A stretch of 16,147 nucleotides of DNA from Lysobacterales bacterium (GTDB lineage Bacteria > Pseudomonadota > Gammaproteobacteria > Xanthomonadales > Rhodanobacteraceae): positions 1-16,147 of the forward strand of contig JAAFHE010000011.1 of NCBI GenBank assembly GCA_013298265.1, written 5' to 3'. Of the stretch, positions 1 to 15,419 are shown piece by piece. The notes beneath the pieces are model-generated. The model was not told the DNA's origin and searched no databases. It was given only the letters and a program-made list of their open reading frames with translations. Numbering within the stretch: the first letter of the stretch is position 1; the number at the start of each line of letters is the position of its first letter. The position numbers and the translations under genes are program-made.

Positions 1-926
1 CTCCAACCATGGCACCCGCGCCGCTATTCGCTGTGAGCTTCATGACCGTAGTCGGTTCGCTTTTTTTCCCTATATGGATTTTCCAGGGATTGGAACTGAT
101 GCATTTCACAACACTGTGCAGTCTTGGGGGAAGACTGCTCGCCACCGCCGGCATCTTCGTATTCGTGGACGGTCCCGACGATGTGCTGATCGCAGCCCTG
201 CTGCAGTCATCCGGCACCTTCCTTTCCGGCGTGATGGCGCTGCCGATCATCTTGCGCCGTCTCCAAATCGTCTGGCCGCAGCACTGGCACGACGTGCGCG
301 ACGAGGTAGGTCTGGCCTGGAGCGAAGGCAGGAAGATGGCGCTTCCCGACTTCGCCAACCAGATGCTGACCAACTCGAGTGTCGTCGTACTCGGCTGGTT
401 CGCCGATGCCTCGACGGTAGGTACTTACGCCGCTCTGGAGAAGCTTGTGCGCGCCGGCAGCAGCGCCTTCACCCCGGTCGCGCAGGCGCTGTTCCCGCGG
501 GTGGCCCAGCGCCATCTGGCCGATCCGGTCGACGCCCGCGCCCTTCTCTGGCGCTGGAGTCTGCGGCTCGCCGCCGCGGCGGCTCTCGCGTCACTCGCGC
601 TTGCCGTGCTGGCCGAACCCGTGCTTGAGCTTCTGTTCGGACCTGCCTGGTCGGCGCAGGCTGGTGCGCTGGCACTGTTTGCCCCGTCGATCTTCTTTAG
701 TGTGGTTTCCACGGTGACGGCGCAGCTATGGCTGCTCGCGCGTGGACTTCAAGTCGCCTGGACGCAGACCATGTGGATCTGCGGCGCGCTGCGCGGGACG
801 GCACTGGCGACAGGGCCATTGCTGGGTGGCTACGTAGGCCTTGTCGTCGCGCAGTCCATTGCGGAATGCCTCGCTGCAACCGTCTTCCTGCGCGCCGCCC
901 GGCGCGGCGCGGGAGCATCGCCATGA
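1..926 (+). CDS. Polysaccharide flippase, Wzx/PST family (5' partial)
   Basis: Lipid-linked oligosaccharide flippase of the MATE-like polysaccharide transporter superfamily, expected in the inner membrane moving glycan repeat units to the periplasm. The visible part is about 307 residues. Family members usually have 400-480, so roughly the first 100 or more lie outside the window. The frame is open to the left edge, and the ATG at 9 is probably internal. An early FPIWIFQGLELM segment matches the conserved P-W-x-FQG-x-E-x-M motif of this family. Several hydrophobic segments follow, for example the Ala/Leu-rich stretch near 540-640 and the last 100 residues, around an amphipathic linker (EVGLAWSEGRKMALPDF). 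The stop overlaps the next ATG as ATGA at 923-926, indicating translational coupling with a glycosyltransferase. The polysaccharide cluster context supports the call. The substrate cannot be inferred. Confidence 0.85.
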   Translation, partial: PTMAPAPLFAVSFMTVVGSLFFPIWIFQGLELMHFTTLCSLGGRLLATAGIFVFVDGPDDVLIAALLQSSGTFLSGVMALPIILRRLQIVWPQHWHDVRDEVGLAWSEGRKMALPDFANQMLTNSSVVVLGWFADASTVGTYAALEKLVRAGSSAFTPVAQALFPRVAQRHLADPVDARALLWRWSLRLAAAAALASLALAVLAEPVLELLFGPAWSAQAGALALFAPSIFFSVVSTVTAQLWLLARGLQVAWTQTMWICGALRGTALATGPLLGGYVGLVVAQSIAECLAATVFLRAARRGAGASP

Positions 927-2158
927 AGATCTTGATCGTCGTCGCGCTGTATCCGCCCTGGAACATCGGCGGTGCCGAACTCGGCGTTCGCACGCTGGCC
1001 CTGGGCCTGACCGCACGCGGCTGGGATGTCCACATTGTTACATTGGCCCCGTCTGATGGCGGCGGGGAGCCGGCCGAAGCGCTGCAGGAGGGCGTGCGCG
1101 TACATCGCGTTCCGATGGCCAATCTCTATTGGCCGTATCGCCGCGATACGGCGCCGCCACCGGCTGCCAAGCGCGCCGCCTGGCATCTCATCGACACGTG
1201 GAACCCCCTGATGGCCGCGCGAGTGGGCCGCCTCGTTGATCGCATCAGACCCGACGCCGCAATCACACACACGCTGCAAGGTTTCTCCACCGCATTGTGG
1301 CCGGCGCTTGCCCGCCGTGGCGTTCCTGTGATGCACGTACTCAACGATTTCGCGCTGCTCTGCCCGCGCACGGTGCTGTTTCGCGACGGGCGCAACTGCG
1401 GCCACGGCAGCTTGCGCTGTCGTTCCTGTCGCTGGCTGACACGGCCGCGCTGGCGCCAGACCGTGCATTTGAGTCGGGTAGTCGGCGTCAGCCGCGCGGT
1501 GCTGCAGATTCACGAAGCCCACGGACTATTCCACGCGACACCGCGCGAAGTGATCTACAACGCATTGGCTCCCGGTGAGACGCCGCTGCCGGCGCTACCG
1601 GTGTGTGAGCCCCGGCACGAGCTGCGCTTTGGTTTTCTCGGCCGCGTGGATGAGCCCAAGGGCATCGAAACTCTGCTCGAGGCGGCGTCGCTCCTGTGCC
1701 AGCAAGGCAAGCGCTTTAGCCTGACTATCGGCGGTCGGGCCGGCTCTGACTATCTGACGACGCTGCAACAGCGCTGGCCGCTGTCAAACGTGGAATACCA
1801 GGGCTTCGTACAGCCGCAGGACTTTCTGGCCACGATCGACGTGCTGGTCTACCCGAGTCTCTCGCTCGAAGCGCTCGGCAACGCCGTCTTCGAGGCCTAC
1901 GCGAAAGGCGTGCCAGTGATTGGCTCGCGGCAGGGCGGCATCCCCGAAATGATCGAGCCTGGCGTGACCGGATTCACCTTCGCCAGCGGGGACGCGGCCA
2001 TGCTTGCCGAACACATGGCCATGCTGATCGACCAGCCAGGCCTGCGGGAGGCGATGGCCCGGGCCGCGCTGAATAAATCCCACGCCTTCCTGGCGCAGCG
2101 GCGCATCGACGAGTTCGAGCAGGCCATCCGTGCCATCGTGACAGACCGCTCGTCGTGA
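923..2158 (+). CDS. GT4-family glycosyltransferase with a Cys cluster
   Basis: Cytoplasmic GT-B fold, retaining glycosyltransferase of family GT4 (411 aa), expected to transfer a nucleotide-activated sugar to the growing lipid-linked glycan. The N-terminal domain opens MKILIVVALYPPWNIGGAEL, the classic acceptor-side start with the Gly loop. The C-terminal donor domain has FGFLGRVDEPKGIETLLEA near residue 245 and the E-x7-E signature (E316, E324) in SLEALGNAVFEAYAKGVPV. A cysteine group, C147-x11-C159-x6-C166-x2-C169, follows HVLNDFALLCP. Similar clusters occur in a subset of GT4 enzymes and could bind a metal. The start at 923 is preferred to an in-frame start at 728 because it overlaps the flippase stop as ATGA and begins exactly at the family N-terminus. 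The stop overlaps the next gene as GTGA. Donor and acceptor sugars are unknown. Confidence 0.9.
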   Translation: MKILIVVALYPPWNIGGAELGVRTLALGLTARGWDVHIVTLAPSDGGGEPAEALQEGVRVHRVPMANLYWPYRRDTAPPPAAKRAAWHLIDTWNPLMAARVGRLVDRIRPDAAITHTLQGFSTALWPALARRGVPVMHVLNDFALLCPRTVLFRDGRNCGHGSLRCRSCRWLTRPRWRQTVHLSRVVGVSRAVLQIHEAHGLFHATPREVIYNALAPGETPLPALPVCEPRHELRFGFLGRVDEPKGIETLLEAASLLCQQGKRFSLTIGGRAGSDYLTTLQQRWPLSNVEYQGFVQPQDFLATIDVLVYPSLSLEALGNAVFEAYAKGVPVIGSRQGGIPEMIEPGVTGFTFASGDAAMLAEHMAMLIDQPGLREAMARAALNKSHAFLAQRRIDEFEQAIRAIVTDRSS

Positions 2159-3420
2159 TCGGGACGGTGCGCACATCGGCATCGCTCCGACGTGAGAAGT
2201 TCGTTCTCTGGGCGGCGCTCGCGTTCTTCACCGCTACCATCGTGTCGGCGCCAATGCGCTGGATCTTCGCCCAGGCCGGCCTGACTCCGCTGATCTATCT
2301 CCCGAATGCCGCGCTGCTCACGGCAACGATCTGGCATACCGTTGCCGAAGTGCCGGCAGGCGAATACTCGCTGCAACGGTTCGGCGGACTCGCCGTCATC
2401 GCCGGCGGCTTGGCGATTGGACTGGCCCTTCTGCCGCCCAAGCAGGTGGCGCTCGGCGCCTATGCGTTGCTGCCGTTCTGGTTCGGCCTCGCCTGTGGTC
2501 CGCTGCTACTGCGCGCATGGCGGGTGATCGCGCCACTTCTGTGGCCTTTCTGGCTGATTTGCCTTGGCGGCGTGATTACCAATTCACTGGTCGACTATCC
2601 CTGGGAGGGCTTCGCCTATTCGGTCGGCGACGTTGACGTGGAGGGCGCGCGCGAATGGTATGCAACGGGCGGCGGCAAGCGCATCGCCGGCCTGGCGCGC
2701 GCGTCCTTCGACGCCGGCGTGCATGTGCTGATCCTCTCGCTGCTGCTCGCGATCGAAACGCGCTCTCGTCTGGTAGCGATTGCAGTCTGGGCGCTGGGCG
2801 CCTATGCGGTCGTACTGACGACCAGCAAGGGAGTGCTGATCGTCTTCCTGGTTCTCACCCCCTACGTGGCCGCGCGACGCTGGATTCCCGAGCCGGCATT
2901 GCGCGCGTTGCCGGTCGTAATCGGCGGTATCGGCATGCTGCTGCCGCTGGCGGCGCTGCTATTCGACGTGCGCTTTGACGTACGCGACGAGGCGCTCGCC
3001 AACATCACCTTCTCATTCGTCGACCGACTGCAGAACATGTGGCCGGAAGCCTGGCTGCTGCTGCATGAGCACGGCCACATGTTGTTTGGCCGCGGCATCG
3101 GCGGCATCGGCACGGCCCAGACCTATTTCGAGCCGGGCCGATTCAATGCGGCCGACAATCTGTTCATGTACTGGTGGGTCGTGTTTGGCTGGGCCATCTT
3201 TCCGCTGTTCCTGGGGACACTGCTGCGCAGCGTGCTGCTGCGCCCGCATCACGACGCAACCGATCGCCGCGTCTACGTGCTGTGGCTGGCCGCGCTAACC
3301 TACGGCATGACTACGAATATAGTGGAAAATGCTATGTTTGCTGCTTTTTGCGGACTGGCGATCCGACATGTACTGGCCCGGCCGGCCGGGTGGCCGCCAC
3401 CGCAGCCGGCGCAGGCGTAG
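2155..3420 (+). CDS. Wzy/WaaL-type O-antigen polymerase or ligase-like membrane protein
   Basis: Polytopic inner-membrane protein of 421 aa with about ten or more hydrophobic segments, of the length expected for O-antigen polymerases and ligases. Family-like marks are TTSKGVLIVFLVLTPY near residue 222 and the late motif GRGIGGIGTAQ (from about residue 312). The latter is followed by a soluble loop and AADNLFMYWWVVFGW. It resembles the G-x-G...N-x-(F/Y)-(L/M)...G pattern at the end of the large periplasmic loop in Wzy_C/O-antigen ligase proteins. The start is GTG at 2155, overlapping the preceding stop as GTGA. The position beside a flippase and glycosyltransferases suggests polymerisation of the repeat unit. 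Sequence conservation in this family is poor, so polymerase versus ligase cannot be decided. Confidence 0.72.
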   Translation: MIGTVRTSASLRREKFVLWAALAFFTATIVSAPMRWIFAQAGLTPLIYLPNAALLTATIWHTVAEVPAGEYSLQRFGGLAVIAGGLAIGLALLPPKQVALGAYALLPFWFGLACGPLLLRAWRVIAPLLWPFWLICLGGVITNSLVDYPWEGFAYSVGDVDVEGAREWYATGGGKRIAGLARASFDAGVHVLILSLLLAIETRSRLVAIAVWALGAYAVVLTTSKGVLIVFLVLTPYVAARRWIPEPALRALPVVIGGIGMLLPLAALLFDVRFDVRDEALANITFSFVDRLQNMWPEAWLLLHEHGHMLFGRGIGGIGTAQTYFEPGRFNAADNLFMYWWVVFGWAIFPLFLGTLLRSVLLRPHHDATDRRVYVLWLAALTYGMTTNIVENAMFAAFCGLAIRHVLARPAGWPPPQPAQA

Positions 3421-3442
3421 GCGCCGCGGCGCCGGAGGACAC

Positions 3443-4555
3443 ATGGAACGACAGCTACTGGTCAATGCACGATTCATCGACCGCCCGGTGACCGGTGTGG
3501 AGCGAGTCGCGCGCGAGGCGCTCGCTGCGATGGCACGCGACCATCTGGACGCGCAGGGAGGGTGGACCTCGCCCGGCGGCGACTATTGGCGCGTGTCGCT
3601 CGTAGCGCCGCGGGTAGCCGATACGCCCTCGCCCTGGCCCAACCTGCCGCTGCTCCGACACGGGCGGCTGCGGGGACATGCCTGGGAACAATTCGAGTTG
3701 CCGCGGCTGGTTGGCCGGCACTGGCTGCTCAGTCCCTGCAATACCGGTCCGCTGCTCAAGCGCCGCCATCTTCTGTTCCTGCACGACGCCCAGCCGTTTG
3801 CCTTTCCCGGCAACTTCACCTGGAGCTTCCGCACCTGGTATCGGCTGCTGTTCCATATCGCCGGCCGGCGCGCCGCCGGACTTCTGTGCAATTCGGTGTT
3901 TACTCGGGACGAACTCGTGCGGCGGGTTGGGCTGGATGCGCACAAAATCACAACCTGCCTGCTCGGCGGCGATCACGCGCTGCGGGGCACCGAGGTCGCA
4001 ACGTTGCCGCCGCTGCCCGACACGTTTCTGCTGGCCGTGTCCAGTCCAAGTCCGAACAAGAATTTCAGCGCTGTTGTCGCCGCTCTGGAAATCCTCGGCG
4101 ATGCTGCGCCCGCCTGCGTCATCGTAGGGGCGCCGAATGAGCGCATTTTCGCGCAGGCCCAGCTTGACAGTAAGCGTATCGTCCGGCTCGGCTATGTCAG
4201 CGACGCGCAGCTCTTCGCCCTGTATAGCCGCGCGCTGGCCCTGGTCTATCCCTCGTTCTACGAAGGATTCGGGCTACCGCCGCTCGAGGCCATGACAAGA
4301 GGCTGCCCGGTCGTTCTGGCACGCAGCAGCGCCCTGCCCGAAATCGGCGGCGATGCGGCGGAGTACTGCGACCCCGCCGACCCGGCTTCTGTCGCCGAGG
4401 CCATCGCGAGGGTCTGTACCTCGCCGCACCACCGCAACGTATTGCGTGAACGCGGCCATGCCCGGGCCAGCGAACTTACCTGGTCGCACACGGCCCGCAG
4501 CATGCTCGACGCGCTGGCGCGGACGGCGGGCGGCTCCCCACACACCGATCCATGA
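3443..4555 (+). CDS. GT4-family glycosyltransferase (mannosyltransferase-like)
   Basis: GT-B fold glycosyltransferase of 370 aa, cytoplasmic or membrane-associated. The N-terminus, MERQLLVNARFIDRPVTGVER, is typical of GT4 enzymes that start with an N-A-R-x5-(T/S)-G-(I/V)-x-R pattern. The donor domain shows AVSSPSPNKNFSAVVAALE, then YPSFYEGFGLPPLEAMTRG with the E-x7-E pair E274/E282, then GCPVVLARSSALPEIGGDAA. This C-terminal half resembles mannosyltransferases of O-antigen clusters, but the sugar is not proven. A purine-rich GGAGGA at 3434-3439 precedes the ATG by 3 nt. An in-frame start at 3329 would overlap the previous gene and lacks family similarity. The stop forms an ATGA junction at 4552-4555. 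Only 22 bp separate it from the upstream gene, so it belongs to the same operon. Confidence 0.9.
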   Translation: MERQLLVNARFIDRPVTGVERVAREALAAMARDHLDAQGGWTSPGGDYWRVSLVAPRVADTPSPWPNLPLLRHGRLRGHAWEQFELPRLVGRHWLLSPCNTGPLLKRRHLLFLHDAQPFAFPGNFTWSFRTWYRLLFHIAGRRAAGLLCNSVFTRDELVRRVGLDAHKITTCLLGGDHALRGTEVATLPPLPDTFLLAVSSPSPNKNFSAVVAALEILGDAAPACVIVGAPNERIFAQAQLDSKRIVRLGYVSDAQLFALYSRALALVYPSFYEGFGLPPLEAMTRGCPVVLARSSALPEIGGDAAEYCDPADPASVAEAIARVCTSPHHRNVLRERGHARASELTWSHTARSMLDALARTAGGSPHTDP

Positions 4556-4557
4556 GC

Positions 4558-4563
4558 AAGGAG
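4558..4563 (+). promoter_or_regulatory. Ribosome binding site deciding the start of the last glycosyltransferase
   Basis: AAGGAG lies 6 nt upstream of the ATG at 4570. The alternative ATG at 4552, inside the ATGA junction with the preceding gene, has only a C/A-rich upstream stretch and no Shine-Dalgarno. The 4570 start also gives the family-typical N-terminus MRVALVHDWL. Confidence 0.6.
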
Positions 4564-4569
4564 TCGTCC

Positions 4570-5703
4570 ATGCGTGTTGCTCTCGTCCATGACTGGCTCG
4601 TGATCTACGGCGGCGCGGAGCGCGTGCTGGAACAGCTGATCAACCTGTTTCCGTCTGCCGATATCTTCAGCCTTATCGATTTCGTCCCGGACGCCCAACG
4701 CGGCTTTCTGGGGGGACGTCGGCCACATACCAGCGCCATGCAGCGGATACCCGGCGTGGCGAAGCACTACCGCAAGCTGTTGCCACTGATGCCTTATCAC
4801 ATCGAGCAGTTCGACCTGTCGGCCTACGATCTCGTGATTTCGAGCAGCTATTGTGTGGCCAAGGGTGCGCTGACCGGCCCGAATCAGGTGCACCTGTGCT
4901 ACTGCCACTCGCCAATGCGCTACGCGTGGGACCACTACCACGAGTATCTGCGCGAGACGGGACTCGTCCGCGGTCCGGCCGCCTGGTTTGCACGTTGGCA
5001 GCTGCACCGCATCCGCACCTGGGACGTGCGTTCGGCCAATACGGTCGATCATTTCGTGGCGAACTCACGCTTCGTGCAGGCGCGCATCCGCAAGTTTTAC
5101 CGCCGCGACTCGGTCGTCGTGCCGCCGCCGGTGGATACCGGGCTGTTCGATCTCGAACCGGACAAGGACGACTACTACGTCGCGGCGGGCCGGTTCGTGC
5201 CGTTCAAGCGCCTCGATCTGGTTGCTGAGGCGTTTCGGCGCATGCCTTCACGACGCCTTGTGCTGGTCGGCGACGGCCCCGAAATGTCGCGCATCCGTGC
5301 CTGCGCAGGTCCCAATGTGGAATTTACCGGCTTTCTTTCGCCCGAAGGGGTGCGCGAGAAGCTACGCCGCGCAAAGGCCTTCGTGTTCCCGTCCGAGGAG
5401 GATTTCGGCATTGTGCCGGTCGAGGCCCAGGCATGTGGCACGCCCGTGATCGCCTACGCCTCGGGCGGTGCGCTGGAGACCGTCATCGGGCTGGACGACG
5501 GCTCCGGTCATGCGCCGACCGGCCTGTTCTTCAACGAGCAATCCGCCGACAGCATCATCGCGGCGGTGGAGCGGTTCGAAGCACAGTCGGCTTGCTTCGA
5601 CGCGACGGCCATCCGGCAACAGGCCGAACGGTTCTCGCCGGCCGTGTTCCGCGCCGCATTCGCCAGCGAGGTCGAGCACGCCCTGGCAGCGCTGCGCCGC
5701 TGA
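4570..5703 (+). CDS. GT4-family glycosyltransferase (WbaZ-like)
   Basis: GT-B fold glycosyltransferase of 377 aa and the last gene of the polysaccharide operon. The N-terminus MRVALVHDWLVIYGGAERVL is characteristic of WbaZ-type GT4 enzymes, many of which are mannosyltransferases. The middle carries CYCHSPMRYAWDHY, a signature of this subgroup, and HFVANSRFVQARIRKFYRR. The donor domain has YYVAAGRFVPFKRLDLVAEA and EEDFGIVPVEAQACGTPV, with catalytic-type E277-x7-E285. The start was placed at 4570 rather than 4552 because of the AAGGAG 6 nt upstream. If 4552 is used, six residues (MSKESS) are added and an ATGA overlap is created. The stop lies one base from the convergent stop of the minus-strand signalling gene. 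Which sugar it transfers is inference only. Confidence 0.9.
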   Translation: MRVALVHDWLVIYGGAERVLEQLINLFPSADIFSLIDFVPDAQRGFLGGRRPHTSAMQRIPGVAKHYRKLLPLMPYHIEQFDLSAYDLVISSSYCVAKGALTGPNQVHLCYCHSPMRYAWDHYHEYLRETGLVRGPAAWFARWQLHRIRTWDVRSANTVDHFVANSRFVQARIRKFYRRDSVVVPPPVDTGLFDLEPDKDDYYVAAGRFVPFKRLDLVAEAFRRMPSRRLVLVGDGPEMSRIRACAGPNVEFTGFLSPEGVREKLRRAKAFVFPSEEDFGIVPVEAQACGTPVIAYASGGALETVIGLDDGSGHAPTGLFFNEQSADSIIAAVERFEAQSACFDATAIRQQAERFSPAVFRAAFASEVEHALAALRR

Positions 5704-5704
5704 C

Positions 5705-7321
5705 TCATCCGGCAGAGGCCGGCTCCGCGCGAAACTTGACGAGCAACTGCGCCTGTCGCCGGTCGCGGTCGGCGAAATAGTGCACCCGGTCGAAACAGTG
5801 CTCGATCACGTACAAACCATATCCGCCCTCGCTATAGTCGGGCGGCAGCTCGGCTGGACGCTCCGGCCGGAACGGCACACCGCGGTAGACCAGCTCACAG
5901 GTCAGCATCTCGTCATTCCAGGCAATGGTCAGTGCAGCGCCCAGCGTTGGCTCGATCTCGCCGTGACGGAAGGCGTTGGTCACGGCCTCAACCACACCGG
6001 CCTCGACTGCAACGCGCCACGATTCGCTGGCCTCTCCGGCCGCCTGGTCAAGCACGGCAGCAATACGCTGACGCAACAGCGTCAATTGATCCACCGCGTC
6101 AAAGATCTGTAGCGTCTGCGCCACTGGGCCAACAGCGGGCGCCCATTCCAGCAGCAGCAGCGAACGATCATCGGCTGCATATGCATCGCTGGCGGCCACG
6201 ATCGCGTCGGCGAGGTCTCCGGCCATGCCGGGTGCGGTGCCTTCGATCAGGGCAAGCAGGCCCTCAAGGCCTCCCTGCTCGGGCGTCTCGAAGGCATCGA
6301 CGATCCCGTCAGACACGAGCAGCAGGCGGTCGCCACGCATAAGCACCAGCTCGCACGCCACATACCCGTCATCGCGCAGCACGCCCAACGGAAGGTTCTT
6401 GCCATTGAGCAGCAACGCACTCGAAGCGCCGGCGCGTTGGAGAACCGCTTTGGTATGTCCGCAGTCGACGAACCGGAACGTGCCGCTATACAGGCCTATT
6501 CGCCAGTATTGCAGCGTGATCAACCCCTCCAGCTGCTCAAGCACCGGCTGTAGTTCGCGCGACAGCCGGCAGCAGATGTCTTCTATCGACAACTCCGCAC
6601 GAGCTTCGATCAGCAGCCGCATCAGGGTCGCCTTCAGTCCCGCGCCCAGCATGGCGGCAGACAGCCCCTTGCCCATCGCGTCGCCAACGACAATATCCAG
6701 CGCGCCGTCGCTGCTGGCAAACCCGTCGACGAAATCACCGTTGACGCTGTGCACGGGATTCACTCGCTGGGTGCAGCGCAGTGCCCCCCATTGCGCCGGC
6801 AGCGACTGATACAGAATGTGCTGTTGTACATGTGCGCCAATGCGCTGCTCATAGTCGCGCAGCGTGCGCAGGCGCGCCTGCTGTTCGGCGATCTCCGCTT
6901 GCGCAGCGCGCAGCGCTTCGCGATCACGGATCTGCACGGACACCTTCTGTATCATCTGGCGCAACAGCACGCGTTGCGCGGGCTTGATGAGCACGTGGTC
7001 GACGCCCAGTTCGATGGCATGTACCAGCGCGTCCTGGTCGCCGAAAGCGGTAATCAGAATGATGGGGAAATCGACGGACCAAGCCCGTACGCGCTCAGCC
7101 AGATCCAGGCCCGTTTCCCGCCCCTCGAAACGCAGGTCGGTCACCAGTACGTTGACCTGTCGTGATTCGATCAGCGGCCAGGCATCTTCGGGACGCTCCA
7201 CCACGAATAGCGCCTGCGCATGCGGCTGCAACCAGCGCTGCAGCATCAGACGGCTGACAGGGTCGTCTTCCGCCACGGCGATAAACAGCGGGCTGCCGCC
7301 AGCATTGTCGAAAATGCTCAT
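5705..7321 (-). CDS. Response regulator with PP2C phosphatase and RsbW-like kinase domains (HsbR/CrsR-like)
   Basis: Cytoplasmic three-domain switch protein of 538 aa. Residues 12-125 form a CheY-like receiver with acidic E18/D19/D20, phospho-acceptor D62, T91 and K113. A coiled-coil linker (REALRAAQAEIAEQQARLRTL) leads to a SpoIIE/PP2C phosphatase domain at about 160-385, with metal-binding D196 (NGDF), D214 (VGDAMGKG), DCGHTK and VSDG. Residues from about 405 to 530 form a GHKL/RsbW-type ATPase with N-box VEAVTNAFRHGE and G-box EGGYGLYVIEH. The order matches Pseudomonas HsbR and Shewanella CrsR. These dephosphorylate or phosphorylate a STAS anti-anti-sigma protein depending on receiver phosphorylation. 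No STAS gene is visible here. The start at 7321 is chosen over an in-frame GTG at 7384: it has GGAG 8 nt upstream, and the extra 21 residues are Arg/Ala/Pro-rich and resemble no domain. Divergent from the hybrid kinase, a likely partner. Confidence 0.9.
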   Translation of the reverse strand: MSIFDNAGGSPLFIAVAEDDPVSRLMLQRWLQPHAQALFVVERPEDAWPLIESRQVNVLVTDLRFEGRETGLDLAERVRAWSVDFPIILITAFGDQDALVHAIELGVDHVLIKPAQRVLLRQMIQKVSVQIRDREALRAAQAEIAEQQARLRTLRDYEQRIGAHVQQHILYQSLPAQWGALRCTQRVNPVHSVNGDFVDGFASSDGALDIVVGDAMGKGLSAAMLGAGLKATLMRLLIEARAELSIEDICCRLSRELQPVLEQLEGLITLQYWRIGLYSGTFRFVDCGHTKAVLQRAGASSALLLNGKNLPLGVLRDDGYVACELVLMRGDRLLLVSDGIVDAFETPEQGGLEGLLALIEGTAPGMAGDLADAIVAASDAYAADDRSLLLLEWAPAVGPVAQTLQIFDAVDQLTLLRQRIAAVLDQAAGEASESWRVAVEAGVVEAVTNAFRHGEIEPTLGAALTIAWNDEMLTCELVYRGVPFRPERPAELPPDYSEGGYGLYVIEHCFDRVHYFADRDRRQAQLLVKFRAEPASAG

Positions 7322-7369
7322 CACACCTGCTCCGCGCGCTGCCGGCGCCAGGGGCCGCCGGACGGGACG

Positions 7370-7378
7370 ACTATAGCA
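7370..7378 (-). promoter_or_regulatory. Candidate extended -10 promoter of the HsbR-like gene
   Basis: Read on the minus strand, this is TGCTATAGT, a TG-n-TATAGT extended -10 element one base from consensus. Transcription would start near 7363, giving a leader of about 40 nt before the ATG at 7321. No good -35 hexamer lies 17 nt upstream (CAGATT), which extended -10 promoters tolerate. Prediction by eye. Confidence 0.4.
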
Positions 7379-7380
7379 AC

Positions 7381-7393
7381 TCACACATTGTGA
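7381..7393. repeat. Inverted repeat TCACA-CAT-TGTGA in a divergent promoter region
   Basis: Perfect 5-bp arms around a 3-bp centre in the 151-bp region between two divergent signalling genes. It lies just upstream of the extended -10 element of the minus-strand gene, within the spacer between its -10 and -35 positions. A bound regulator there would block that promoter. The order TCACA-TGTGA is the reverse of a CRP site. The short arms mean it could be chance. Confidence 0.3.
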
Positions 7394-7472
7394 ATCTGCG
7401 CGCGTAATAGACTGGGCAACGCCACATCAGCCGCCGGATTTTCCAACGCTAGCCAGAGCAGGGCGACAACGC

Positions 7473-9737
7473 ATGGCCGACCGACAAACCATTCTCCTGC
7501 GCATGCGCTCGGTGATCCTGCTGTCGCTGATGACCTGCACGTCGGTCGTCCTTGTCCTCAGCGGCGTCGTGTTTGTCCGTGGGGAGTCGGCACGCCAAGC
7601 GGTGATGCACCGCAGCCTGCTCGATTCCTCTGCCCGTCGCATCGCGCTTTCCGTCGATCAGTTTCTCTCACTGCATTCCGCCGCCCTCACCCTGGTCGCC
7701 GAATCATTGAACCGCGGCGACTGCACCTCTCCCCTATGCCACGCGCAGAAGATTGCTGACCTGCAGCGCTGCTTTCCGGCATTCCAGGCAGTATCGGAAA
7801 ACGATGCCGCGGCGACAGGCAAGTTATACTTTGTCGCACTCCCACTTCCCGGCGCCGCTACCGACACGCTGCCAGTGCAGGTTTCCGTGGCGCGCACGTC
7901 GGCGGATGACCAGTCGCGCGGGTCTCTCGTCGGAATACTGCGCGTGCCGCTGCCGCATCTGTTTTCTGTGTCGTCGGACAACCCTGAGCGGACCGGCGGC
8001 AATCTGCTGTTGATCGATCGAGCCGGCGCCGTGCTGTTTTCGTCGGCCGGCACTTCCATTTCAACCTTGCCCGCGCCCGCCGCACTACTCGCGGCAATAC
8101 GGGACGGCACCGGCGAAGTTCAGCTGAATGATCAGGCGCTGCTGATACAGACCGGCGCGGTGGCCGCAGCAGACTGGCGCGTAGTCGTGATGGTGCCGCG
8201 GGAGCGTAGTGTGCCCGGCCTCACTACGCTGGTCAGCCACGCGGGACTCGCACTGCTGATCGCGTTGCTGATCGCCGTCCCGGCAAGCCTGTGGATTTCA
8301 CGCGTGGTGCTGCGCATGCTCGATGGCCTCGCGCACACGATGCGCCGCCCTGATCCGAACCGGCTTGACGAGCCCCCCATTGGCGAGGGTTTGGCACGCC
8401 CGAGCCGCGGCGAAGCGGACGAGTCCGCGGCAGCAACGCAGCCGATCTGCGATCAGACGGTGACCGAGGTGGACATGCAGCACCTCGCGCATGCCGGTCC
8501 TGACGGCGCCCATCGCGAACTCGCCGCGCGGGCGCGGCAGCGCGAGGCAGAGGTCGACGAGCAAACGGCTGATCTCAAGAACGCGCTGAATTTTGCCAAT
8601 GAAGCCATACGCGCCCGCGACACATTGCTGGCCAATACGAGCCATGAAATCCGCACGCCGCTTTACGGGATCATCGGCGGCATCGAGCTGTTGAGGCCGA
8701 ACCTCACCGATGCGGAGGATCTGAATAACCTCAACGCGATCATGCAGTCCGCCGAGAGCCTGACTCAGCTGATCAACGATCTGCTCGACTTCAGCCGGAT
8801 CAATGCCGGCGCACTCCAGCTCGCCCCTCAGCCGTTTTCGGTGAGCGAACTCGCGCGCGAGGTCGTCGCCAGCGTGCAGCCGCTGTCCGCCAAGCGCGGC
8901 ATCGGCATCCGCCTGACGGACGAACTCACCACGGGCATCCGCCGCGGCGACGCGCTGCGCGTGCGCCAGATTCTGTTCAACCTGCTTGGCAATGCCGTGA
9001 AGTTCACGGAGAAAGGCGAAGTGAGGCTATCCCTGCAGGACGACGGCACCGGCATCCGCATTGTCATAGCGGATACCGGCGTCGGCATCGCGATCGAGGA
9101 TCTGCAACGTATCTTCAAGCCATTTGAGCAGGCTGACCTTTCGATGCGGCGACGCTTCCAGGGCACCGGCCTGGGGCTTGCCATTGTCGACGGGCTGGTG
9201 TCCGCCATGGGCGGCAGCATCGCGATTGCCTCGCAGTTGGGCAAGGGCACAACCTTCACGCTCAGCTTGCCGCTGCCGCCAAGTGCGGCCCTGAATCGCG
9301 ATGACGACCAGGCGCCGGCGCCGATGGGTAGTTTCGCGGGCCTTCGCGTGCTGGTCGTCGACGATGTCGAGATCAATCGCACGCTCCTCAGTGCCCAGCT
9401 CAAGCGACTCGGTGCCGAGGCGATTTGCGCCGAGGACGGCTATGCCGCGCTTACCCTGCTGTCCCGCGAGACCGTCGACCTGGTGTTGCTGGATTTGCAG
9501 ATGCCCGGTATCGACGGCCTGGAAACCGCTGGCCGCATGCGCGCATTGCCGAATGGTCGCTGCGTACGAATCGTCGCGGTCACCGCGAACGTTCAGCCCG
9601 GCGAACGGGAAAACTGCCTTGCCGCGAGCATGGACGACTACGCGACCAAGCCGCTGCGCATGGCCGGACTGCGGCAGCTCCTGGCCGACACGATGGCGTA
9701 TGCCGGACGGGATCTGCGCGGCCAGGCCGAGATCTGA
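7473..9737 (+). CDS. Membrane hybrid sensor histidine kinase / response regulator
   Basis: Inner-membrane sensor kinase of 754 aa. TM1 is at about 12-34. A periplasmic sensor of about 220 residues (CACHE-like size) carries C84, C89 and C100. TM2 is at about 256-279. A long charged, coiled-coil-prone linker follows (about 330-375). The dimerisation/phosphoacceptor domain has H391 in NTSHEIRTPLYGIIGGIELL. The ATPase domain has the N-box NLLGNAVKFTEKGE, DTGVGI and GTGLGLAIV. The C-terminal receiver (about 622-740) has D630/D631, phospho-acceptor D674 in LLDLQMPGIDG, and K726. There is no HPt domain, so onward phosphotransfer needs a separate HPt protein. The ligand is unknown. The ATG at 7473 is preceded only by a weak GCAGGG; another ATG lies at 7503. 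The divergent HsbR-like protein is a plausible final target. Confidence 0.93.
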   Translation: MADRQTILLRMRSVILLSLMTCTSVVLVLSGVVFVRGESARQAVMHRSLLDSSARRIALSVDQFLSLHSAALTLVAESLNRGDCTSPLCHAQKIADLQRCFPAFQAVSENDAAATGKLYFVALPLPGAATDTLPVQVSVARTSADDQSRGSLVGILRVPLPHLFSVSSDNPERTGGNLLLIDRAGAVLFSSAGTSISTLPAPAALLAAIRDGTGEVQLNDQALLIQTGAVAAADWRVVVMVPRERSVPGLTTLVSHAGLALLIALLIAVPASLWISRVVLRMLDGLAHTMRRPDPNRLDEPPIGEGLARPSRGEADESAAATQPICDQTVTEVDMQHLAHAGPDGAHRELAARARQREAEVDEQTADLKNALNFANEAIRARDTLLANTSHEIRTPLYGIIGGIELLRPNLTDAEDLNNLNAIMQSAESLTQLINDLLDFSRINAGALQLAPQPFSVSELAREVVASVQPLSAKRGIGIRLTDELTTGIRRGDALRVRQILFNLLGNAVKFTEKGEVRLSLQDDGTGIRIVIADTGVGIAIEDLQRIFKPFEQADLSMRRRFQGTGLGLAIVDGLVSAMGGSIAIASQLGKGTTFTLSLPLPPSAALNRDDDQAPAPMGSFAGLRVLVVDDVEINRTLLSAQLKRLGAEAICAEDGYAALTLLSRETVDLVLLDLQMPGIDGLETAGRMRALPNGRCVRIVAVTANVQPGERENCLAASMDDYATKPLRMAGLRQLLADTMAYAGRDLRGQAEI

Positions 9738-13056: not shown

Positions 13057-13487
13057 TCACTGCTTTCCTGACGACGCGCCGCGCCCCAACGGCCAGTGTG
13101 CCGCGCCGATGCCGAGCAGCAGCAACAGTCCCCAGCCGTTGACCACGCGCGGCAGCGAGGGCAGCGTCGCGAGCAACCCCGCGAGCCAGCCGGCCCCCTC
13201 CAGCACCAGGCCGGCGACCCCCAGCGCGAACAGCACCAGCAGCAGCACGACGATCCAGCGCTGTGGCCAGCGCGCGTCGAGCAGGGCCGCACGCTCGGCG
13301 CGCCGCGCCACGCGGCGCGCGAAGCCATCAGGCAGGCCTAGGGGCAGCGGCTCGCGCAACGCGCGCGCGACCAGGCGGTACGAGGCGGGCACGTTCTCCG
13401 CATCGGCGCGGCCGCCCTCGATGTCGATAGCACGCTGTTGTAGCGTCCATTCGCGTTCCTGTTCCGGCGACAGCGGCGGCAAGGTCG

Positions 13488-13491
<4 letters not shown>
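13057..13491 (-). CDS. Putative membrane anti-sigma factor
   Basis: Protein of 144 aa encoded directly after the ECF sigma factor, with an ATGA overlap (13488-13491). The cytoplasmic N-terminal part (1-78) carries YRLVARALREPLPLGLPDGFARRVARRAE, similar in style to small anti-sigma factors of Lysobacterales. Strong hydrophobic segments follow at about 80-98 and 118-133, and a weaker one lies between. It lacks the zinc-binding H-x3-C-x2-C motif of ZAS-type anti-sigma factors, so the call rests on position, size and topology. It would tether the sigma factor at the inner membrane. The frame stays open upstream to 13968, but that stretch is out of frame over the sigma gene and is an artefact. The start at 13491 is fixed by the coupling. 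A hairpin follows the stop. Confidence 0.65.
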
Positions 13492-14066
<575 letters not shown>

Positions 14067-14080
14067 TCCATCCGTTGCAA

Positions 14081-14107
14081 GATACGGAATCCGAGCGGGC
14101 GGTTGCA
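14081..14107 (-). promoter_or_regulatory. Putative ECF-type promoter of the sigma factor gene
   Basis: Minus strand: TGCAACC (14107-14101), 14 nt, CGTATC (14086-14081). The 12 nt TGCAACCGCCCG, the CGTATC box and the 14-nt spacing are all repeated in the divergent promoter at 14147-14173. This bipartite layout, a -35-like box with a C-G-T core in the -10, is usual for ECF promoters. It suggests positive autoregulation. A transcript would start around 14074. Confidence 0.65.
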
Positions 14108-14146
14108 GCCTTCGCGGTGGATCGGCGTCAGCGCCATGAAATTCCT

Positions 14147-14173
14147 TGCAACCGCCCGGCACCGGCGCGTATC
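14147..14173 (+). promoter_or_regulatory. Putative ECF-type promoter of the small membrane protein gene
   Basis: Plus strand: TGCAACC (14147-14153), 14 nt, CGTATC (14168-14173). It matches the element driving the sigma gene in both boxes, in the first five spacer bases (GCCCG) and in spacing. The predicted start is near 14180, giving a leader of about 38 nt to the ATG at 14218. It makes the downstream gene a likely member of the sigma factor's own regulon. Confidence 0.65.
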
Positions 14174-14217
14174 CCTTAGCCCGACCGGCCCTGCGGCCGA
14201 CGCATCGCGGAGTACCC

Positions 14218-14562
14218 ATGGACCACCGAGTGCTGGTGCCGATCGCCCTGTTCGGCAGCGTCATCTACGTGATCAAGCTGCTGATCGACGCGCGCATGCG
14301 CATCCTGTTGCTGCGCGCCGGCGATCCGGAGGAGTTGCGCTCGCTGCTGCAGGCCGAAGCCATCCAGCGCCGCCACGCCTCGCTGCGGTCGGGCATCACC
14401 CTGGGCATGCTCGCGCTGGGCTTCGCGCTGATCCAGCTACTGGGCTGGAACGACATCACCCCGGGCGCGATCGCGGTGCTGGCCGCAGCCGCAAGTCTCG
14501 GCAACCTCGGCTACTACGCGCTGACCCGGCGCGACAGCCAGGCGCCCGGCGAGACCCGCTGA
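14218..14562 (+). CDS. Small three-helix membrane protein (DUF6249-like)
   Basis: Protein of 114 aa with hydrophobic segments at about 5-23, 59-76 and 82-101. A charged cytoplasmic-type loop lies between the first two (DARMRILLLRAGDPEELRSLLQAEAIQRRH). The helix / charged L-x-R-x(G/A)-x-P-x-E loop / two-helix layout is reminiscent of the DUF6249 family, often seen next to ECF sigma factors in Lysobacterales. This is recalled resemblance, not a search result. The start at 14218 has GGAG 5 nt upstream; an in-frame start at 14146 would run through the promoter. Divergent from the sigma factor and preceded by a matching promoter, so likely co-regulated with it and possibly part of its sensing or feedback. 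Function unknown. Confidence 0.75.
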   Translation: MDHRVLVPIALFGSVIYVIKLLIDARMRILLLRAGDPEELRSLLQAEAIQRRHASLRSGITLGMLALGFALIQLLGWNDITPGAIAVLAAAASLGNLGYYALTRRDSQAPGETR

Positions 14563-14639: not shown

Positions 14640-15419
14640 ATGGCCAACGACATTCCGTCCGCTGTGCGGGAAATCTGCCTGTCGTTTCCCGAGGCCGAGG
14701 AATACCTGTCGCACGGCGCGCCGAATTTCCGCGTGCGCGGCCGGCCGTTCGCCAGCTATCTCGTCAACCACCATGGCGACGGGCGCATCGCGCTGTGGCT
14801 GGGCTCGCCGGCGGGTGCGCAGGAACACCATGTCGGCCACGAACCGGCGTATTTCTTCATCCCGCCCTACGTCGGCAAGTCCGGCTGGCTCGGTGTACAT
14901 CTGGACAAAGGACTTGACTGGAAACGTATAGTCGGCCTCGTGCGCGAGGCCTACGAACGCGTCGCGCCACCGCCTCTGATCAAACAGATCGGCAAGCCTC
15001 CCGTCATCGTGCCGCCGGAGCGGGCGCCCAGTGCCGAGGAACGCGATCCGCTGAGCGCACCGGCCCTGCAGAAACTGATCCGGCCGCTGCGCGAATTCTG
15101 CCTGTCGCTGCCCGAAGTCACCGAAGACCCGCGCTTCGGCGCGCCGTCCTGGCAGGCGGGCAAGCGCACGTTCGCAAACGCGTACCGCTACGACGAAAAC
15201 CTCACGTTCGGCTTCTGGGTCGGCGTCGAGCAGCAAGGCCTCTATACGGTCGACCAGCGCTATTCGATTCCGCCCTACATGGGCCACAACGGCTGGATCG
15301 CGCTGAAGGTCGGCGCGAAGCCGAACGCGAAAGAGATCCGCAGCCTGGCGCTGCACAGCTACCGGCATTTCGCGCTCAAGCGCATGCTCGCGAAACTCGA
15401 CGCCACACCGCCCGCCTGA
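14640..15419 (+). CDS. Tandem YjbR/MmcQ-domain protein
   Basis: Protein of 259 aa made of two copies of the YjbR (CyaY-like fold, 'MmcQ') domain, about 1-115 and 143-255, joined by a Pro-rich linker (KPPVIVPPERAPSAEE). Both copies have the opening helix (VREICLSFPEAEE and LREFCLSLPEVTE), then G-A-P-(N/S)-(F/W)-x-x-(R/A)-G-(R/K), then IPPYVGKSGWLGVHLD and IPPYMGHNGWIALKVG, and a closing Leu-rich helix (LVREAYERV and LALHSYRHF). Most YjbR proteins are single-domain, about 110-130 aa, so this is a duplication. Family members are called DNA-binding by structure, but the role is not well established. GGAG lies 8 nt before the ATG. It converges on the M23 peptidase gene across a strong hairpin. Confidence 0.85.
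   Translation: MANDIPSAVREICLSFPEAEEYLSHGAPNFRVRGRPFASYLVNHHGDGRIALWLGSPAGAQEHHVGHEPAYFFIPPYVGKSGWLGVHLDKGLDWKRIVGLVREAYERVAPPPLIKQIGKPPVIVPPERAPSAEERDPLSAPALQKLIRPLREFCLSLPEVTEDPRFGAPSWQAGKRTFANAYRYDENLTFGFWVGVEQQGLYTVDQRYSIPPYMGHNGWIALKVGAKPNAKEIRSLALHSYRHFALKRMLAKLDATPPA

Follow-up and report, generated by a model that had tools for sequence, protein, structure and literature searches.

The bipartite element TGCAACC-N14-CGTATC stands twice, in opposite orientations, between an ECF sigma factor gene and a divergent gene for a small membrane protein in the window (the whole 16,147-nt stretch of DNA analyzed here, which is one whole contig of the host assembly). Both copies are very probably promoters recognized by the product of the ECF sigma gene at 13488-14054; one would drive the operon of the sigma factor and its putative anti-sigma factor and the other the divergent DUF6249-like gene. 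This reading draws on comparison across related loci, from which the boxes, their 14-nt spacing, the three-gene unit, and the direction and distance of the elements to their candidate target genes can be read off.

Twin elements in the window

Scanning the window with the pattern TGCAACC-N{13,15}-CGTATC returned exactly two matches, both with a 14-nt spacer, against a mean of 0.01 matches in shuffled sequences; none of 200 shuffles contained two. The features of the locus are the following.

13057..13491, minus strand: putative anti-sigma factor of 144 aa with C-terminal hydrophobic segments; its start overlaps the sigma stop by 4 bp, and weak family matches are found in some of its homologues but not in the protein itself
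13488..14054, minus strand: ECF sigma factor of 188 aa, with regions 2 and 4 only (PF04542, PF08281; solved matches 6in7 and 1or7)
14051..14071, minus strand: six-codon ORF MECPRS followed by TGA, predicted to be leaderless; it starts 9 nt past the -10 box, and its stop overlaps the sigma ATG (ATGA, 14054-14051)
14081..14107, minus strand: promoter element toward the sigma gene (-35 box TGCAACC at 14101-14107, 14-nt spacer, -10 box CGTATC at 14081-14086), kept in orthologues
14108..14146, no strand: gap of 39 bp between the two -35 boxes, outside the 10/21/31-bp register of 82/109 loci
14147..14173, plus strand: promoter element toward the DUF6249-like gene (-35 box TGCAACC at 14147-14153, 14-nt spacer, -10 box CGTATC at 14168-14173), kept in orthologues
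14218..14562, plus strand: small DUF6249-like membrane protein of 114 aa, itself under the Pfam cut-off

As the sequence-only reading had reported, the element was matched base for base at 14081-14107 (minus strand) and 14147-14173 (plus strand), in divergent orientation, and each copy is directed at its own gene: the minus element faces the sigma gene (ATG at 14054), and the plus element faces the DUF6249-like gene (ATG at 14218). Two finer points of that reading held in part. The 12 identical bases described on the -35 side are present in the window, but positions 9 to 12 (CCCG) are weakly conserved across loci (0.05 to 0.46 bits), and their identity here is probably a local coincidence or a product of base composition. 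Likewise, the "identical 14-nt spacer" is identical in length but differs in sequence.

A TTG-started ORF in the DUF6249 frame (window 14146-14562) starts beside the -35 box, and automatic annotation could set the start of the DUF6249 gene too far upstream. Elsewhere in the window, positions 14640-15419 encode a 259-aa protein with two YjbR-type stretches, and the ORFs at 9-9737, judged by eye only, resemble genes for polysaccharide export, glycosyltransferases, a response-regulator phosphatase, and a hybrid histidine kinase.

The 188-aa sigma protein scores above cut-off for PF04542, PF08281, and PF04545, with no further domain above cut-off. Its best solved-structure matches are a sigma-H factor (6in7), which we take to be AlgU, and E. 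coli sigma-E, RpoE (1or7). An AAC in the -35 box and a CGT in the -10 box are present before the sigma factor's own operon, and the conserved promoter stands before that operon in the orthologous loci. According to PMC8103513, classical ECF systems are marked by AAC/CGT boxes, by autoregulation of the sigma factor, and by an anti-sigma factor transcribed together with it. We infer that the window sigma factor recognizes these AAC/CGT boxes.

The twin element accompanies the sigma gene across relatives

We defined a strict site as TGCAACC-N14-YGTATC and a sigma orthologue by at least 49% identity, and looked among 61 related genomes for orthologous loci without both boxes, a check that the sequence-only reading came through. 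In all 27 genomes that have an orthologue, one or more strict sites were present (anywhere in the genome), versus 4 of the 34 that lack one, and a reversed control pattern was present in 5/27 and 7/34, respectively. In one of the 27 (G039), the strict sites lie away from the orthologue, one at a second sigma paralogue and the other elsewhere; this paralogue (L166), which is 42% identical, has a strict site that faces its own DUF6249-like gene. Three weaker sigma matches (30 to 38% identity) had no site within 400 nt.

A set of 126 orthologous loci was selected solely on the encoded protein; it excludes the weak sigma matches L031-L033 and the second paralogue of G039. Both sites were found at 109 of these loci when up to 2 of the 26 positions were allowed to mismatch. 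For the other 17, both sites within 2 mismatches were not found in the scanned stretch: 8 of these are rearranged loci, and the other nine (L030, L216, L224, L242, L255, L264, L265, L267, and L268) have degenerate sites or none that we found. When spacers of 12 to 18 nt were allowed in the first 30 loci from the sigma protein search, all matches had 14 nt.

At the level of the order, the sigma gene was found in 119 of 398 genomes (E up to 1e-40) and a strict twin (gap of 0 to 61 bp) in 66; by list comparison, all 66 are among the 119, and in each the twin adjoins the sigma gene. The reversed-pattern control gave no twin in any of the 398. A search for the twin by DNA only (gap of 6 to 36 bp) in 84,980 species genomes yielded 90 loci, 89 of which have a sigma homologue beside the twin and 89 a DUF6249-like gene; in the exceptions, L074 and L083, the locus ends near the twin. 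Among the 80 twin loci with listed taxonomy, nearly all belong to Lysobacterales genera, together with a few metagenome-assembled genomes bearing broader labels and one labeled Burkholderiales. In these 90 loci plus the window, conservation was read only beyond the boxes, whose bases the search itself had fixed. A G predominates at position 8 (71/91 and 84/91 on the two sides), and the other spacer positions vary freely. Selection on the boxes, proposed earlier from the window itself, is supported: boxes and 14-nt spacing persist in loci whose spacers diverge.

The two membrane proteins of the unit

In 121 of the 126 loci, the sigma gene is followed by an ORF with a hydrophobic segment, and the two share exactly 4 bp at the sigma stop. 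Among 72 of these 121 proteins, which we aligned, weak matches to RseA_N were seen in 11 (E up to 0.1, best 5e-4) and to "anti-sigma factor" families in 5 (E up to 0.1). The window's own 144-aa protein matched no Pfam or NCBIfam family, RseA_N included; its predicted model (mean pLDDT 85.5, pTM 0.45) gave no credible fold match in the PDB, and a search of solved structures with the profile of the 72 homologues turned up no anti-sigma factor. We label the protein a putative anti-sigma factor because of its position, the overlap, its hydrophobicity, and the weak family matches; as such, it would hold the sigma factor inactive until released by an envelope signal.

The divergent protein of the window does not reach the cut-off of DUF6249 (PF19762), with 21.2 bits versus 33. 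The start of the DUF6249 gene could be placed in 68 of the 126 loci, 50 of which passed the length filter, and 47 were aligned with the window protein; 46 of these 48 aligned rows, that of the window included, match the DUF6249 profile at E up to 0.001. The model of the window protein shows three long helices (mean pLDDT 79.6), and a fold search with it gave no credible match. The gene adjoins the sigma gene in all 126 loci, divergently in 118 and on the same strand in 8. In the 8 rearranged loci, the DUF6249 gene lies between the sigma gene and the promoter, a strict site in seven of them and a one-mismatch site in the eighth, so that the membrane gene remains behind the promoter despite the rearrangement. 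The DUF6249-like protein would take part in sensing or feedback.

In two of these eight, G045 (L028/L171) and G095 (L318), the DUF6249 gene is within the operon, and the divergent strict site faces a gene for a serine hydrolase of the beta-lactamase fold, a layout that ties a candidate regulon enzyme to the sigma locus itself. Separately, at the rearranged loci L319 (G370) and L321 (G258), from the same genus, a one-mismatch site (CGCATC) faces a gene for a small protein (about 100 aa).

Spacing between the two -35 boxes

In the 109 loci with both sites, the gap between the -35 boxes measures 8 to 13 bp in 58, 20 to 24 bp in 13, and 30 to 33 bp in 11 (82/109 in total), and no gap occurs at 6-7, 14-19, 25-29, or 34-37 bp. 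The remaining gaps comprise 13 at -4 to 5 or 38 to 53 bp and 14 beyond 60 bp, with a full range of -4 to 302 bp. Among the 90 loci found by DNA, for which gaps were limited to 6 to 36 bp, lengths of 29 and 34 bp do occur, and none is found at 14-19, 25-28, or 35-36 bp. Periodicity was evaluated on 21 independent clusters with gaps of 0 to 60 bp, a range that excludes the -4 case and the 14 gaps above 60 bp: for a period near 10.5 bp, R was 0.557 (p=0.0009), and p was 0.013 when any period from 6 to 16 was allowed. With the 14 clusters of 6 to 36 bp, R rose to 0.889, a value reached in 0 of 20,000 draws.

These figures make it likely that the gap is kept in a register of one, two, or three helical turns across loci, with the caveats that the class limits were drawn after inspection of the data, that 50 of the 122 inner branches of the sigma tree are weak, and that the 39-bp gap of the window itself falls outside the register. 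One may instead regard the one-, two-, and three-turn gaps as inherited accidents of a few ancestral spacings under no constraint, an explanation that we doubt but take seriously. It would accommodate the off-register gaps that exist (-4, 5, 38, 39, 44, 46, 47, 49 bp, and others, the window among them), and it gains from the post hoc class limits and the open tree branches. It does not sit easily with the three classes having interchanged at least 13 times on that same partly weak tree, with the empty stretches at 14-19 and 25-29 bp in the 109 loci, or with a periodic signal that was obtained from independent clusters.

The start of the sigma message

An ATG lies 9 to 10 nt past the sigma-side -10 box in 92 of the 110 loci with a clear sigma-side promoter, compared with 2 of 109 on the other side; 18/110 have no ATG at offset 9 or 10. 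In 61 loci, this ATG shares the frame of the sigma gene and is its likely translation start. In the 31 loci where it is out of frame, 29 (the window included) open an ORF of six codons whose stop lies on the sigma start, through an overlap that reads ATGA in 26 and GTGA in 3. The in-frame and six-codon kinds interchange at least 5 times on the sigma tree.

On the DUF6249 side, a pyrimidine-purine step occupies positions 36-37 of the promoter (85/91 at each position), which suggests the same initiation distance and hence a sigma transcript that is leaderless or carries at most about 3 nt ahead of its start codon. We therefore predict, from position only, that the sigma mRNA is leaderless or nearly so, with its 5' end at or within about 3 nt of the AUG.

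The conserved ATG might instead reflect a preference of the initiator region for transcription and not a translation start, which we consider rather unlikely. A purine is indeed favored at the corresponding position of the opposite promoter (A23 and G62 of 91), and the ATG is kept whether in or out of frame, as such a preference would allow. What is retained on the sigma side, however, is the full ATG and not a mere purine, and a preference at the initiator would hardly lead nearly all of the out-of-frame ATGs to give exactly six codons with a stop on the sigma start.

Additional sites and hydrolase genes

At least 51 strict sites lie outside the locus in sigma-bearing genomes, including 23 further genomes that were queried individually. 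Six of the 51 have no downstream ORF, and the ORFs at six others (L284, L286, L287, L288, L303, and L310) were excluded by eye as unlikely frames; 51 is kept as the denominator throughout. The remaining 39 downstream proteins were scanned with Pfam: 15 match PF00144, the family of serine hydrolases with a beta-lactamase/PBP fold (E up to 0.001), 6 match DUF4440, 4 match Hydrolase_4 (S33), and one each matches Peptidase_S41, Peptidase_M23, and an aspartyl protease. When scanned singly, four PF00144 matches were found among ten, all above cut-off. Many of the target proteins start with an apparent signal peptide (by eye).

The serine hydrolase match starts 28 to 55 nt past the -10 box in 12 of the 15 sites. 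A serine hydrolase profile matched only downstream on the strand of the site and never on the other side; as it was built from the 15 targets themselves, it bears on direction and control and is not an independent find. The same profile found no match at 10 sites from genomes without a sigma orthologue, one of which (G060) has a weak sigma match of 31%; these 10 are a subset of such sites, and this control covers serine hydrolases only, not DUF4440 or S33. Since each of six Tahibacter-group genomes contains 8 to 27 PF00144 genes, the position of 6 of the 8 extra Tahibacter-group sites just before a PF00144 gene is far beyond chance.

The host assembly, which is 87.6% complete, has a single further strict site (C21:4995-5021), which precedes a gene for a DUF4440 protein with an apparent signal peptide (by eye). 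No promoter with up to 2 mismatches was found upstream of the best PF00144 gene of the host genome (G000 C597). The earlier suggestion that the pattern could serve as a genome-wide search tool was useful to a degree: 15/51 extra sites precede serine hydrolase genes, but about 23/51 have no convincing target, and we did not treat all extra sites as regulon.

Repeats of the form ...ACGGGCC..ATGCGTATC in G325, G396, G368, and G258 resemble one conserved coding stretch and were rejected as part of the regulon. A one-mismatch search of eight Tahibacter-group genomes was set aside because the reversed control gave more matches (116 versus 102). Five Tahibacter-group genomes (G002:C8:88578, G003:C1:295833, G005:C655:5757, G006:C45:172261, and G007:C20:643448) share a one-mismatch variant, TGCATCCGA...CGTATC, which could be either a weaker target common to them or part of a conserved coding sequence.

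Other readings of the twin element

The two TGCAACC boxes form a perfect inverted repeat, and their gap tends to whole helical turns, as is the case with dimeric or looping regulators. The repeat could accordingly be an operator for a dimeric transcription factor, with the distance to CGTATC being incidental. We think this highly improbable, as genes are also preceded by lone sites that point one way: one-directional sites with the N14-YGTATC half stand 28 to 108 nt before serine hydrolase sequence, and single sites precede DUF6249 in the rearranged loci. Gaps as different as -4 and 302 bp also argue against an operator of this kind.

Just as improbable in our view is that the elements serve a different ECF sigma factor encoded by the host, with this locus as a target and not as the source. 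ECF promoters do resemble each other, and a first-look sigma search gave 7 to 45 candidates per genome. The motif nevertheless tracks this sigma gene, both in the 61 related genomes (27/27 versus 4/34) and among the 398 genomes of the order, where 66/66 strict twins are beside it, rearranged forms included. This association suggests that the boxes are read by the window sigma factor rather than by another. Lastly, a recent functionless inverted duplication of the intergenic region, to which the 12 shared bases on the -35 side might have pointed, is refuted by conservation, given that the spacer and gap sequences differ and diverge among species while the boxes stay and that the layout is common to many genera; the sequence-only reading had likewise argued against a simple recent duplication.

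Discussion

The conserved twin elements, together with the same sequence before hydrolase genes, most likely describe one small self-regulated circuit, in which both elements act as promoters of the sigma factor. Its minus-side promoter would drive the sigma/anti-sigma operon, amounting to positive autoregulation, and its plus-side promoter would drive the divergent DUF6249-like gene; the three components of the signaling unit would thereby increase together. In relatives, the same promoter would drive one or a few hydrolases with apparent signal peptides, chiefly of the beta-lactamase/PBP fold, as the output. The AUG of the window would open the six-codon ORF that overlaps the sigma start, the sigma factor thereby being made by termination-reinitiation, and the anti-sigma factor would be made via the same ATGA device.

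Compared with known systems, the locus is reminiscent of the RpoE/AlgU and RseA type. It encodes a two-domain sigma factor whose best solved matches are a sigma-H factor (6in7) and sigma-E, it has an adjacent membrane ORF with weak RseA_N similarity in 11/72 homologues, and its -35 box is of the AAC type. It differs by its divergent DUF6249 partner and by the next gene in the window, which encodes a 959-aa protein. The sigma-E promoter consensus also differs from TGCAACC-N14-CGTATC. With autoregulated ECFs in general, as described in PMC8103513, it shares the AAC/CGT boxes, an operon behind what is probably its own promoter, and a putative anti-sigma gene that may be co-transcribed; the fixed DUF6249 triad (126/126), the candidate hydrolase regulon, the predicted leaderless start, and the likely helical-register spacing set it apart from that description.

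The sigma-P/RsiP response of Bacillus thuringiensis to beta-lactams similarly links an ECF to beta-lactamase-type enzymes; it belongs to another phylum, and the enzymes found here are serine hydrolases assigned by family match. Closer in taxonomy is sigma-P of Stenotrophomonas maltophilia (Smlt3514), a Lysobacterales ECF whose next gene, according to PMC9769791, overlaps by 4 bp and is without recognized anti-sigma similarity. The lengths given there differ (192, 177, and 293 aa, with a third gene), and orthology between this factor and the window sigma factor is only a lead.

Among the papers listed by our literature searches, none concerned a TGCAACC-N14-CGTATC promoter, DUF6249 together with an ECF, or a six-codon leader ORF; a search on DUF6249/PF19762 returned a single paper, on a plant gene family, and one on divergent promoters with helical phasing gave no match. 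As far as we have seen, the combination of a constant DUF6249 partner, a probable serine hydrolase output, a predicted leaderless or six-codon start, and likely helical spacing is new. The sequence-only reading had foreseen neither the predicted leaderless start and the hexapeptide ORF nor the spacing by helical turns and the hydrolase genes.

Taking these elements together, we tentatively propose, as a possibility still on the doubtful side, a Lysobacterales ECF module that consists of an obligate sigma/anti-sigma/DUF6249 triad under one promoter type, with a leaderless sigma mRNA read directly or via a six-codon ATGA leader and with divergent promoters kept in helical register. If this is true, the hand-over of ribosomes at ATGA would couple production of the sigma factor to ribosome state, and the helical register would let two polymerases act on one another. 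The fixed hexapeptide ORF before the sigma gene would offer a clean test of leaderless starts in regulation, and the stepwise promoter spacing would offer one of whether adjacent divergent promoters interact through DNA geometry. In the literature searched, this ECF was without a described regulon; it now gains a candidate promoter code, a partner family (DUF6249), and an enzyme output, all of which can be tested in soil bacteria.
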